Assembly (NCBI GenBank): GCA_028284765.1
Contig: JANQRA010000002.1
Location: 1-64,000 of the forward strand
From: Acidimicrobiia bacterium
GTDB lineage: Bacteria; Actinomycetota; Acidimicrobiia; Spongiisociales; ZC4RG35
Reading direction: 5' to 3'
DNA length: 64,000 nt
Shown here in pieces: positions 43,410 through 48,754 of the stretch. Made by a program: the position numbers and the translations under genes. The notes below the pieces were generated by a model. It ran no database searches and was not told the origin of the DNA. It saw only the letters and a list, made by a program, of their open reading frames with translations. How positions within the stretch are numbered: position 1 is the first letter of the stretch; every line of letters begins with the position of its first letter.

Positions 43410-43426
43410 GGCGACGACCGGAATCG
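43410..43426 (-). repeat. Short tRNA-Cys 3'-end-like remnant
   Basis: GGCGACGACCGGAATCG is identical to 17 bases of the tRNA-Cys 3' arm found in both attachment repeats. It may be the trace of an older insertion at the same tRNA, about 0.5 kb outside the present island, or chance. Confidence 0.4.
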
Positions 43427-43454: not shown

Positions 43455-43841
43455 TCAACCCTGCTTCGTTTGGAATGCCGGGTCGGCGATCAGAGGATCG
43501 AGACCGTCCTGCCACTCCTCAGCGGCCATGATGGGCGTACCGTGGATGTTCTTGATGACGGCCATCTGAAAAGCCAGGCTGGGAGAGACGAGAAACATCC
43601 TGTCAGGTGAGAGGGACAGCGACTCGGTCATGTAGAGGGTGGCTAGTTCCCGTCGTCCGTATCCCCCGGATCTCGCTCCGTAGACATACTCAGGATCCGT
43701 CACTTTGAAGTAGAACCGATCCGGTTCCTGGTCGTGCAGAACCTCAACCACCTCCCAACCGCGGGAGGTGCGCCAAAGGCCGAAGCCCAGGAATTCAGCC
43801 GTTTCAGGAGCCTGCTTGGGTCGGCGCTTCAACCATCCCAT
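43455..43841 (-). CDS. Hypothetical protein between the two tRNA insertion sites
   Basis: A 128-residue protein (GWLKRRPKQAPETAEFLGFG at the N-terminus) with predicted alternating strands (VLHDQEPDRFYFKVTDPEYV) and no membrane segment. It lies between tRNA-Val(GAC) and the left tRNA-Cys repeat. It is unrecognised and could itself be cargo of an older insertion. Confidence 0.55.
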   Translation of the reverse strand: MGWLKRRPKQAPETAEFLGFGLWRTSRGWEVVEVLHDQEPDRFYFKVTDPEYVYGARSGGYGRRELATLYMTESLSLSPDRMFLVSPSLAFQMAVIKNIHGTPIMAAEEWQDGLDPLIADPAFQTKQG

Positions 43842-43900: not shown

Positions 43901-43953
43901 TTTGTTTGGAGGCGACGACCGGAATCGAACCGGTGTAACGGGTTTTGCAGACC
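43901..43953 (-). repeat. Left attachment-site repeat (53 bp), tRNA-Cys 3' remnant
   Basis: Perfect 53-base direct copy of 48675-48727. It comprises the encoded CCA end, T arm and anticodon-arm half of tRNA-Cys, but the 5' half does not follow. It is the distal boundary of the 4.8 kb island, as expected when an integrase recombines within a tRNA anticodon loop. Confidence 0.88.
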
Positions 43954-44108: not shown

Positions 44109-45521
44109 TCAGGCGTTCAGAATCGAAGCTGCGGCCCCAGCGATCGCCAGGGCGAGCGCCTTGTCAGTGTCTGGATACTTCAACTGACGGACAGCGTGCG
44201 CGTAGACCATCGCTGCTATCTCAGTTTCAGAACACCACTCGGTGGCCCAGGCGCGGCACTCCCTCACGAACCTTGGAACGGGGCATCCATGGGTATATGC
44301 GTCCAGATCGAACCACTGGCGTCCTTCTTCAACCGATGGCCACTCTTCCAAGTCGGGATGCTCCTCGTGCAGAAGGAGACTCAACTCAAGCGTTATCGGA
44401 TCGAGGACCACTGGTGCCAGCCCAACATCCCCATAGTCGATCACCACGGGACTCCCGTCTTCCGCTATGAGGACATTCTTGCCGTGAAGGTCGCAGTGTT
44501 GAACGGCTTGTGGCATCTCGATAGAAAGCGCCTCGACCTCGCGCCACTTGATCTCATCTAGCTCCGAGGTGAACGGATCAAGCTTCGATTCATCAACACG
44601 CGACGATCTCAACTCGCCAACTGTGATTGGCACTCTCGTCGCGGCACGCTGCCAGACGGCGAAAGCGTCTCTGAGATGCTCCACGACGAGCGCAGCTTCT
44701 TCATCAGATTCCTTGATGACATCGAAGAGGTCCGAACCGCTCGATGCAAGTCGATAAAACACGGCTCCGAAGCGGCCCGCACCCGCAAGAACCTGACCCG
44801 TTCGATGGGCCAGAGCACCGATGTCAAGCACCGGCGCAACATGGAGGTCATAACGAGACATCTCATCCTCGACGTCGGCAACCAAGGCCACTTTCGCCAC
44901 CACCAAACCCACAACGTTCGAGGAAGGATCGAGCACCTCGACCTGGACTACTTTCGCCCCCGACAACCCTCCGAGACGGGATAGTCGGAGCCGGGATCCG
45001 CCGAGCTGCCTCCCGTAGATACGAAGTGGCCTTGCCTCGTACTCCCCCATGGACAGGTCCTCGACGCCTTCGAGCTCGACATCGTTCAGGCCGTTTATTC
45101 CGTCGGCCAGCGAGATGGCGCGGTTGATGAAATCCGGTTGGTCCTTCTTGTCGAAGTGGTCCACTAAGACCCATTGTTCACCGGTGCCAAAGAGGTCGGC
45201 AGAGAGGCCTGTACTAAGGCGATTCCCGATGTTTTGAAGATTGGCGTACCCGCTGAAGAAGATCGAAGGCACCCCTGGCCATAGTGATCTGGCCTGGTCG
45301 TGAACGCGAATCCCATGATTCTCGTCGACTTCCAAGCTGCCACGACGAGTAGGGATTCTGAGGTCACACACGATCAAATCGAAATCCTCACGATCACTGA
45401 TGATGTCGAGCGCTTCTTCAAGTCCATGGGCCACAACGACGTCGGCTCCACAGCCGCGTGCCAACAGCCCCGTTAACTCCTCAACGGTCCTCTCCTCGTC
45501 TTCAATCAGGAGGATTCGCAT
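44109..45521 (-). CDS. Response-regulator receiver fused to an APH-fold kinase
   Basis: A 470-residue two-domain protein. Residues 1-130 form a receiver: acidic pair E7-D8-E9 (LLIEDEE), phospho-acceptor D53 (LIVCDLRIP), switch Ser S90 (IFFSGYAN) and conserved Lys at 124-125 (HFDKKD). Residues 165-470 form a kinase of the APH/protein-kinase-like fold: G-loop RLGGLSGAKVVQV, Lys in GLVVAKVAL (K209), catalytic loop VQHCDLHGKNVLI with D343 and N348, and metal Asp D361 in VVIDYGD. All catalytic residues are present. It should be controlled by phosphorylation from the histidine kinase, with which it overlaps by 20 bases. The substrate is unknown; the kinase half may relate to domains described in NTP-dependent conflict systems, which I cannot confirm here. 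Confidence 0.82.
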   Translation of the reverse strand: MRILLIEDEERTVEELTGLLARGCGADVVVAHGLEEALDIISDREDFDLIVCDLRIPTRRGSLEVDENHGIRVHDQARSLWPGVPSIFFSGYANLQNIGNRLSTGLSADLFGTGEQWVLVDHFDKKDQPDFINRAISLADGINGLNDVELEGVEDLSMGEYEARPLRIYGRQLGGSRLRLSRLGGLSGAKVVQVEVLDPSSNVVGLVVAKVALVADVEDEMSRYDLHVAPVLDIGALAHRTGQVLAGAGRFGAVFYRLASSGSDLFDVIKESDEEAALVVEHLRDAFAVWQRAATRVPITVGELRSSRVDESKLDPFTSELDEIKWREVEALSIEMPQAVQHCDLHGKNVLIAEDGSPVVIDYGDVGLAPVVLDPITLELSLLLHEEHPDLEEWPSVEEGRQWFDLDAYTHGCPVPRFVRECRAWATEWCSETEIAAMVYAHAVRQLKYPDTDKALALAIAGAAASILNA

Positions 45522-46440: not shown

Positions 46441-48285
46441 CTAGCCAGACTCTCGTGATCGATAGAACTCCGCTCGCCGCTCGAATGCCTCTTTCCCGCC
46501 TTCCATAACAGTGGTGATTGCAGTCACGACTTCCGGGTCGTCCAATCCACCCCGATGATCGACCCACCCTCTCTTTCCATTGGACGCCAGAGCTACGACT
46601 GCGTCTGCTTCGCCCAGTACAGGGATATTCGCGTTGTGAGATGCCAGGATCAACTGGTCACCTTCTTCGCGCTGAGTGAGCGCACGGACCAGGGTGCCTG
46701 CGATGAACGAATTGTCTATCTGATCCTCCGGCTGATCCACCAGGAGGATGTCTCCGTGCCTGGCCAGAAGGAGTGGCAGCACAATGGTGCATCGTTGCCC
46801 AATCGAAGCTTCTTGGCTCTCCTTGTATTCAGCTCCATCCAAGAGCTTCAGGGTGATTCCGTCTTCTATGGGGGACGCGATGATGCTCGACAAGTCAGAG
46901 TCGGCCAAGGCTTGGATAATCGACTCGGCCACCCTGTCGCTAAGATTGCAGGCATCTACAAGGGCCTGGGCGTCTCGTGATTCGACGGCCTTGACCAATT
47001 CGAGCGGGGACATATTCATGGCCAAAGTCGGAGCATGTCGGCTGTAGTGCAGTCCGCTTCCTCGCAGTCCTGAGATGATGGTTTCAGCGTAAGACCGCGT
47101 TTCCATAGACCGTGAAGCCTCAACAACGATATTCGGAGACAACTCCTGCGTTAGTGCATCCGCAACCTGATTGCGAGATTCGAATCGGAGTTGTCGGAAG
47201 GAGTCCAACTCTCTGTACAAGGCATCACGTTGCTCGATTCGCGAATCCGCTCTTTCCTCAACCTCTTGCAGCCGTTGACGAAGAGCCTCGACTTGGCCGG
47301 CCCGCTCAGTAAGGGCCTCAACTCGCCGCGTTACTTCCCCGACCCCCCGCTCCACTTGATCGAGCCTTTGCCTTAGCTGACGCCATATCTCATCGACCTC
47401 CACCGATCGAGATACGTCGTTTTCCAACAGAACGTTGATCTCACCGACAGCGCCCTGAACAACATTTCGAATGCGGGCGATCGAATCGATTGACTCCTGC
47501 ACGGCTGCACGGATTGACTGCAACGTGTCGACATCGCCAGCCGCCTCTGGCCATGAATCGGCGAGGACGGATCTGTTGGCGATGCTCACCAACTCCGTGT
47601 CGAGACCTTCTAGCTCGGCGATGCTTCGCTCGAGCACACTTCTTCGGACCTTTAGCTGGGCTGATTCCCGCTGAAGTTGGTCCAATTGAGATCGATCTTC
47701 GGAACTCGCCTCAACCGAGGCGAGCGCTGCTTCCTCCTCCTCCCTGGCAGCCACTAACTCCTCGGAGACACCCTGCGACTCAGCAATCTGACTCTCCATC
47801 TGATCTAGGTCTTTAAGGAGGTCTCGAATCTCTGATGTCATCGACCGGATCTGTCTCGCAACTCGCTCAGACTCAGCCCGCTCTCGTGTCAATGTGGGAG
47901 TGAGCCTGTCGACTAGGTGCAGTCTGCCGCTGGGCTGTGCGCCCACCGCTTCAATCTCTCCTTGGCCGAGAATGGTGACCCTCGGCACCTCAGCGGTGGA
48001 TCGTGGATCTTCGTCCGAAGCCGAACGAACGACCACCACAGTCTGTTCGCCGTCGGACAACGTAACCGTCACCTGGCCACCCCGAAGGACAGAAAGAGCC
48101 TGCTGATGGCCGCGCTCGCGGGCCTCGTCAGTAAAGGCAGGGGCGGCTAGACAGAATCGTATCAATTCGATGAGAGATGTCTTACCCGACCCACGGGCAC
48201 CGATGATGACGTTCAATCCGGGATCGAATCGAAGATCCAGGCCATCGAGAAAGCCCTCATCGACTTGAACTCGCTCAATGTGCAA
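46441..48285 (-). CDS. SMC/RecF-like coiled-coil ATPase related to TrlF-type ATPases
   Basis: A 614-residue ATPase. Walker A is IIGARGSGKTSLIE (K35), and a Q-loop-like ILGQGEIEAVG is near 105-115. A coiled coil of roughly residues 135-370 follows. The C-terminal half holds signature EASIGQRCTIVLPLLL (494-498 core), Walker B GDILLVDQPEDQIDN and H-loop SHNANIPVLG (H550). The QPEDQIDN/HNANIPV combination is that of ATPases such as the TrlF C-terminal part, here without a PHP nuclease domain. It starts at TTG with GGAGGAGAG upstream and leads the operon. It may recognise DNA ends or structures and signal to the kinase pair. Confidence 0.85.
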   Translation of the reverse strand: MHIERVQVDEGFLDGLDLRFDPGLNVIIGARGSGKTSLIELIRFCLAAPAFTDEARERGHQQALSVLRGGQVTVTLSDGEQTVVVVRSASDEDPRSTAEVPRVTILGQGEIEAVGAQPSGRLHLVDRLTPTLTRERAESERVARQIRSMTSEIRDLLKDLDQMESQIAESQGVSEELVAAREEEEAALASVEASSEDRSQLDQLQRESAQLKVRRSVLERSIAELEGLDTELVSIANRSVLADSWPEAAGDVDTLQSIRAAVQESIDSIARIRNVVQGAVGEINVLLENDVSRSVEVDEIWRQLRQRLDQVERGVGEVTRRVEALTERAGQVEALRQRLQEVEERADSRIEQRDALYRELDSFRQLRFESRNQVADALTQELSPNIVVEASRSMETRSYAETIISGLRGSGLHYSRHAPTLAMNMSPLELVKAVESRDAQALVDACNLSDRVAESIIQALADSDLSSIIASPIEDGITLKLLDGAEYKESQEASIGQRCTIVLPLLLARHGDILLVDQPEDQIDNSFIAGTLVRALTQREEGDQLILASHNANIPVLGEADAVVALASNGKRGWVDHRGGLDDPEVVTAITTVMEGGKEAFERRAEFYRSRESG

Positions 48286-48399
48286 CGGTCTCTCCTCCTG
48301 ACATTTGTCTCAGTATGCCTTCTTCGAATGATCGCGCAGGAATCGCTGGCCAACGAACGCGATCGAGCAGCCGACCGCTCACACAGAACAAATGGCGGC

Positions 48400-48645
48400 A
48401 AAAACTCGGGGAGGCATCCAGCGGGCTGCTGGGTCTCGCATCTCGATTGGGCGCGCACCGATTGCGAGCTCGTGAAACGTCAGCTCGGACACTCGTCGAT
48501 CCAAGTCACCTACGACCTGTACGGACACCTGTTCCCAGACGAATCGGACCGGCTCGCCGACGCCCTCGACGCGGTGTGGACCGGTTCTGATGCGGACCAA
48601 ATGCGGACCAAGCCGCCCGCGGGCATCGTCGCTCTCGGATCTTGA
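48400..48645 (+). pseudogene. C-terminal remnant of a tyrosine recombinase (integrase)
   Basis: This part of the open frame encodes RHPAGCW (catalytic Arg-His box), LVKRQLGHSSIQVTYDLYGH (LGH box and nucleophile Tyr), and LFPDESDRLADALDAV, typical of phage-type integrases. The spacing between the RH box and LGH box is about three residues longer than normal, and the N-terminal DNA-binding half is missing. The upstream part of the frame runs antisense to the ATPase start. It ends 30 bases before the right attachment repeat, where the integrase of such an island is expected. Confidence 0.8.
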
Positions 48646-48674: not shown

Positions 48675-48727
48675 TTTGTTTGGAGGCGACGACCGGAATC
48701 GAACCGGTGTAACGGGTTTTGCAGACC
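48675..48727 (-). repeat. Right attachment-site repeat (53 bp) within tRNA-Cys
   Basis: Perfect copy of 43901-43953. Its left end lies just beyond the CCA end of the tRNA, and its right end falls in the anticodon stem. It is part of the intact tRNA-Cys gene. Confidence 0.88.
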
Positions 48728-48754
48728 CGCGCCTAACCACTCGGCCACGTCGCC
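48681..48754 (-). tRNA. tRNA-Cys(GCA)
   Basis: On the minus strand GGCGACG pairs with CGTCGCC, the discriminator is T, and CCA is encoded (48681-48683). The anticodon stem CGGGT/ACCCG encloses CTGCAAA, giving anticodon GCA. It is the integration target of the island. Confidence 0.94.

Follow-up and report, generated by a model that had tools for sequence, protein, structure and literature searches.

A mobile three-gene operon that links a dedicated histidine kinase to a receiver fused with an APH-fold kinase: a candidate anti-invader module

Introduction

The usual outputs of response regulators are transcription or second messengers. In Detocs, the defensive two-component system, the receiver is fused to an effector, and effectors other than PNP exist. 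In TrlF and Ppl the N-terminal part is a PHP domain, and an ABC ATPase related to the one described below is joined directly to this PHP enzyme. Both families are defined in NCBIfam (NF045780, NF042955), where Ppl carries the name anti-phage. According to the excerpted text of PMC11249213, Detocs is a three-gene family in which two-component signalling is coupled to an enzyme effector, the best described being a PNP that degrades ATP. TCAD9 appears as a conflict-system domain in excerpts of PMC10910872, and passages of Kaur et al. (2020; PMC7159879), the main text of which does not use the term TCAD, mention that the effectors of ternary conflict systems include active APH kinases and receiver domains. 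A receiver domain also lies inside a predicted defence system in CnuA of CoCoNuT type I-B (PMC11090510, in part), and one figure legend of the DefensePredictor paper (PMC13092281) names HATPase and REC.

Here we describe an operon from an Acidimicrobiia bacterium (GCA_028284765.1), located in a window of 64,000 nucleotides (contig JANQRA010000002.1, positions 1 to 64,000), which encodes an SMC-like ABC ATPase, a soluble histidine kinase and a receiver fused to an APH-fold kinase. In outline the module resembles Detocs with another sensor and another effector: it begins with a gene for an ABC ATPase and has a kinase as its effector. The comparison with Detocs, including DtcA and DtcB, was made by description, and Pfam found no PNP domain in the receiver-kinase. 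The ATPase is of the same SMC-like ABC kind as that of TrlF and Ppl over its whole length (3.8e-75), but it lacks their N-terminal part, and a relay with an APH-fold kinase is present instead. The kinase half scores above the TCAD9 cut-off, and distant REC-TCAD9 fusions exist (loci L082, L083 and L086). The trio differs from ternary conflict systems in having no MoxR, vWA or VMAP partner; while the consulted passages of PMC7159879 report no histidine kinases with vWA-associated effectors, the loci described here almost always include a dedicated one. Unlike the trio, CoCoNuT is a McrB-type GTPase system, and the excerpted text of PMC11090510 does not mention an APH kinase. Since Pfam TCAD9 already covers the kinase half, a receiver-APH fusion is not new in itself. 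No description of the trio as such was found in the open papers searched.

Receiver and kinase domains of the fusion protein

The features of the locus are collected in Table 1.

Table 1. Positions of the operon, its domains and the flanking elements in the window.
Feature	Position	Strand	Remarks
Receiver-APH kinase fusion, third operon gene	44109..45521	-	ATG start, 470 aa
Receiver domain, residues 1-145	45087..45521	-	Pfam Response_reg, conserved residues, Z 16 to 3crn
D53 codon of the receiver-kinase	45363-45365	-	
APH-fold kinase (TCAD9) domain, residues 160-470	44112..45044	-	Pfam TCAD9 and APH, invariant catalytic residues, fold matches
HCDLHGKN loop codons of the receiver-kinase	44475-44498	-	
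Soluble histidine kinase, 311 aa	45502..46437	-	HATPase_c; directly upstream of the receiver-kinase, 20-bp overlap
SMC-like ABC ATPase, 614 aa	46441..48285	-	NCBIfam TrlF_fam_ATP 3.8e-75; upstream of the histidine kinase
C-terminal remnant of a tyrosine recombinase	48265..48645	+	Matches PHROG integrases (1.7e-6, 1.2e-5)
att-like direct repeat, 3' part of tRNA-Cys	48675..48727	.	Perfect, 53 bp
Second copy of the 53-bp repeat	43901..43953	.	Far end of the island
tRNA-Cys	48681..48754	-	Integration site
Third, partial copy of the tRNA-Cys repeat, 17 bp	43410-43426		Between the island and tRNA-Val
128-aa ORF	43455-43841	-	After the 17-bp partial repeat

The sequence-only reading had proposed a complete receiver carrying D53, followed by an output half that keeps every catalytic residue of an HCDLHGKN-type kinase, and both parts of this proposal were borne out. 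Pfam placed Response_reg on residues 3-106 (E 9.9e-8), and the full receiver set is present with the acidic pair E7 and D8, D53 in the phosphoacceptor column, S90 in the Ser/Thr column and K125. Of the 35 alignment rows that extend over this stretch, 33 retain D53 and all retain K125. In the output half, Pfam detected TCAD9 (PF19974; E 5e-14, 52.7 bits against a curated cut-off of 40) as well as APH on residues 310-375 (E 8.3e-8), and TCAD9 was matched by 11/11 relatives at E <= 0.001. The residues H342, D344, H346, N349, D362, D374 and S381, which include those of the catalytic loop, are identical in all 38 aligned homologues; K210 is Lys in 37 of them and Arg in one.

Structure prediction, which had been suggested as a check, showed the C-terminal half to be kinase-like. 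The AlphaFold2 model, built on the alignment, has a mean pLDDT of 94.3 and a pTM of 0.90. Using VIA-align, its receiver half superposes on receivers (3crn at Z 16.0), in agreement with a CheY-like fold. The kinase half matches solved APH-type kinases, with LxmK (9dk3) as the top kinase match by Z (15.3 over 269 residues), followed by PsiK (14.4), LicA (14.4) and APH(3')-Ia (13.5), and also FN3K; Foldseek relates it to APH(3')-Ia at E 5e-8. Thus, the kinase half has the fold, the HxDxxxxN loop, the metal-binding Asp and the N-lobe Lys of a predicted kinase of the APH/choline-kinase type. These matches of a modelled structure show which fold is present, not which substrate is used. Assignment to the aminoglycoside O-phosphotransferases of resistance was rejected, as the kinase stays under the APH_3p and APH_9_Ib cut-offs. 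An assembly artefact as the source of the fusion was ruled out, because 47/47 plasmid records with a tblastn match align over at least 80% of its length.

Histidine kinase and ATPase

The histidine kinase consists of a short N-terminal helical (HEAT-like) domain, on which Pfam gives HEAT_2 at E 0.033 only, a DHp domain with H99 and an ATP-binding domain. Its fold matches CpxA, ZraS and HK853 in Foldseek, and H99, N207, G244, G267 and G269 are identical in 32/32 aligned sequences. It therefore has the DHp helix with its His, the GHKL ATP-binding domain and the N and G boxes of a two-component histidine kinase. Among PADLOC profiles, no family fits it, and the receiver-kinase gives weak receiver matches only.

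The ATPase aligns to positions 295-944 of the 944 positions of the TrlF_fam_ATP profile, leaving the N-terminal third of the profile unmatched. Walker A K35, S494/G496/Q497, D517-E520 and H550 are invariant in 22/22 sequences. By analogy, the ATPase is probably the sensor of the module. Membership in TrlF or Ppl was rejected since the N-terminal part is missing and the scores fall short of both curated cut-offs (254 against 350 bits for TrlF, 103 against 1000 bits for Ppl). A vWA-MoxR-VMAP ternary system was likewise rejected, as a Pfam search of the three operon proteins yielded none of these partners.

Distribution and gene order of the operon

Homologues were collected from a phylum sample, from plasmids (47 records, 9 fetched), from a genome scan (49 loci) and from a scan of viral contigs (8 loci). 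The search for further receiver-APH fusions, also called for by the sequence-only reading, returned 54 loci that match the receiver-kinase strongly, a count that contains near-duplicates, in addition to the distant fusions named above. Both partners are present in 46 of the 54. The remaining loci are two orphans (L047 and L072), one with a truncated receiver (L065, whose genome holds another ATPase and a histidine kinase bearing one internal stop), one with its middle deleted (L076), one fragment match (L077) and three matches close to a contig end (L059, L069, L078). Left out of the 54 were L082-L086, L088 and L091-L096, which match the receiver-kinase model weakly (E 1e-8 to 1e-27), and L087, which does not match it. 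In all 44 loci with undivided genes, the ATPase gene comes first, followed by the genes for the histidine kinase and the receiver-kinase, and all three share a strand.

Hosts of the strong loci include four phyla (Actinomycetota, Chloroflexota, Pseudomonadota, Campylobacterota), and several of these loci lie on plasmids. The distribution is patchy: of 296 genomes in the phylum sample, 2 carry full-length receiver-kinase homologues, the genome of the window being one of them. The tree largely tracks phyla and is mixed at lower levels; for instance, an Erwinia chromosome groups with a Klebsiella plasmid, and Campylobacterota fall inside Pseudomonadota. The three proteins co-diverge (Mantel r 0.74, 0.77 and 0.80, p 0.0002, 22 loci), which could be explained by common host ancestry alone. 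A near-mode search of E. coli gave no match for three of the operons (L063, L033, L074), and no homologue was found among 50,697 phage records. Two contigs that IMG/VR classifies as viral, L089 and L090 (4279-8407), carry the whole operon, which may travel there in a prophage or belong to an island that was misclassified. When 396 genomes of the phylum were surveyed for TCAD9, all matches were under the curated cut-off and mostly reflected the generic catalytic loop, and the result was set aside.

Homologues without a dedicated histidine kinase

Two full-length homologues, L047 from Dehalococcoidia and L072 from Gammaproteobacteria, have neither histidine kinase nor ATPase next to them. Searches of both whole genomes found no dedicated histidine kinase and no real match to the ATPase; the histidine kinases that did turn up are generic (best E 8.2e-14 and 3.6e-23). 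The two orphans, which sit on separate branches of the tree, retain all kinase residues, while D53 is replaced in both, by G in L047 and by S in L072; L072 has also lost D8 and T90. D53 is thus present in 33/33 aligned homologues linked to a histidine kinase and in 0/2 full-length orphans (Fisher p 0.0017, with two orphans, each of them from a metagenome bin, and a test run after the pattern was noticed). Since D53 is kept together with the histidine kinase and lost in the orphans, the pattern indirectly supports the view that D53 normally receives its phosphate from the dedicated histidine kinase, as judged from sequence conservation. The earlier claim that His-Asp signalling is joined to a kinase stands as far as the single polypeptide and the dedicated histidine kinase directly upstream are concerned, and control by phosphotransfer receives indirect support.

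In L072 (1932-8179), the kinase with the degenerate receiver lies in a row with genes for an SNF2 helicase, HATPase_c_3 and HNH. This setting suggests that the kinase can be wired to another sensor.

Integration and mobility

The 53-bp repeats bound an island of 4,774 bp containing the trio and the recombinase remnant, for which Pfam gave no match. The gap between tRNA-Cys and tRNA-Val measures 5.3 kb here, compared to 0-62 bp in 7 of the 11 relatives examined, from which we conclude that the region was inserted between the two tRNA genes; of the other four, three loci stop at or soon after tRNA-Cys, and L102 has no tRNA-Val in its 1.5 kb. The 17-bp partial repeat was probably left behind by a previous integration into the same site.

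Of the 47 plasmid records with a tblastn match to the receiver-kinase, 36 are from Piscirickettsia. On the one copy examined, P. salmonis plasmid L038 (4406-9473), the ATPase gene is fragmented, the histidine kinase gene is split in two, and the receiver-kinase frame is open despite these broken upstream genes. Near neighbours of the operon were taken from 39/42 loci (112 immediate neighbours; L036, L038 and L090 dropped beforehand, genes >1100 aa excluded) and compared with a control of 75 genes from 14 genomes, all of one phylum. Tyrosine recombinases account for 10/112 neighbours and for none among the best 25 of 67 control families; the difference has p 0.006 with zero control matches and p 0.052 with one beyond the best 25 of 67.

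Neighbourhood and distant relatives

No enrichment of defence genes was seen around the operon: judged from the best 25 families of each set, the number of PADLOC matches in the 75-gene control was no lower than among the 112 neighbours, a result apparently due to one control stretch that sits in a defence island. Defence-island enrichment was therefore discarded as support for an immune role. Single PADLOC matches among the neighbours listed include SduA, AbiEii, MTase_II, DRT, SoFic and REase_I.

Some distant relatives combine TCAD9 with CHAT, Sa_NUDIX or ThiF, domains which occur in conflict systems too. In Caldilineaceae, L082 (5432-7885) encodes a receiver, a TCAD9 kinase and a CHAT protease in a single chain and adjoins a 1421-aa GAF-rich histidine kinase, forming another two-component system with a kinase end, plus a protease domain. 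In L083, a REC-TCAD9 protein is found beside Sa_NUDIX. The ThiF (E1-like) gene of L088 (4584-7531) overlaps a gene for a TCAD9 kinase with a degenerate N-terminal domain, and this pair is a possible further conflict system.

Discussion

With slightly better than even confidence, we regard the operon as a mobile three-gene signalling module that is most likely directed against invaders (phage or plasmid). We propose this role because of the resemblance to TrlF and Ppl, the nature of TCAD9 as a conflict-system domain, the mobility of the operon, and the relatives L082, L083 and L088. Evidence on the other side comes from the neighbourhood, where defence genes are no more frequent than in the control, from the phage records, which hold no homologue among 50,697, and from PADLOC, none of whose families fits the histidine kinase. 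The SMC/TrlF-like ATPase would detect abnormal DNA or an infection state and would signal to the soluble histidine kinase, perhaps via the N-terminal helical domain of the latter. The histidine kinase would autophosphorylate on H99 and pass the phosphate to D53, a step supported by the conserved residues and by the orphans. Phosphorylation of the receiver would alter the activity of the fused APH-fold kinase, presumably by activation rather than inhibition, and the kinase would phosphorylate a small molecule, a peptide or a protein, whereby growth would be stopped or the invader blocked. A two-component relay ending in a kinase would in this way replace the PHP enzyme of TrlF and Ppl. The full scheme of an immune system, in which the ATPase detects invasion and a His-Asp relay drives the kinase to phosphorylate a cellular or viral target, carried as a mobile cassette in at least four phyla, is more tentative, and we give it somewhat less than an even chance.

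The relay could alternatively turn on an APH-type kinase that acts on an antibiotic or metabolite, i.e., an inducible small-molecule modification or resistance. The nearest solved structures do include aminoglycoside, amicoumacin, choline and hydroxytryptamine kinases, and trio genes are carried on plasmids. However, an SMC/TrlF-like ATPase as near-constant first gene (46/54 loci) would be an odd drug sensor, the scores for APH_3p (14.1 against a cut-off of 205 bits) and APH_9_Ib (12.1 against 675) are far too low, and LxmK, the top structural match of the kinase half, acts on a peptide; we consider this explanation unlikely. The same holds, to the same degree, for an addiction or stabilisation module, in which a toxin kinase restrained by receiver and histidine kinase would be freed upon loss of the element. 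Such a module would fit the plasmid-borne trio and the att-flanked island of which the trio is essentially the sole cargo, but a set of three large co-conserved genes, one of which encodes an ABC ATPase, does not resemble the usual toxin-antitoxin pair. Moreover, a freely toxic kinase is disfavoured by the open receiver-kinase frame on Piscirickettsia plasmids with broken upstream genes and by the two orphans, whose kinase is intact while the other two genes are missing.

Still less probable, in our view, is a receiver that serves as a nucleotide-responsive or structural switch rather than as a phosphorelay domain. A switch of this kind has been proposed for some conflict-system receivers, and excerpts of PMC8195603 predict receivers that are independent of histidine kinases; in agreement with this, two homologues survive with neither D53 nor a histidine kinase. 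On the other hand, D53 and K125 are found in all 33 rows linked to a histidine kinase, and H99 of the partner in 32/32. The canonical fold and residues of the histidine kinase would suit a housekeeping two-component system of the ordinary sort whose output is unusual, but we judge such a system very improbable because the distribution is patchy and the operon sits in an island and on plasmids.

Function and mechanism of the proposed anti-invader module are directly testable, as the operon is small, all three genes have clear catalytic residues that can be mutated, and L047 and L072 provide natural variants which have lost the relay. If the proposal is true, two kinase worlds would meet in a single pathway, encoded by a mobile and widespread operon whose His-Asp relay has a Ser/Thr-type or small-molecule kinase as its last step.
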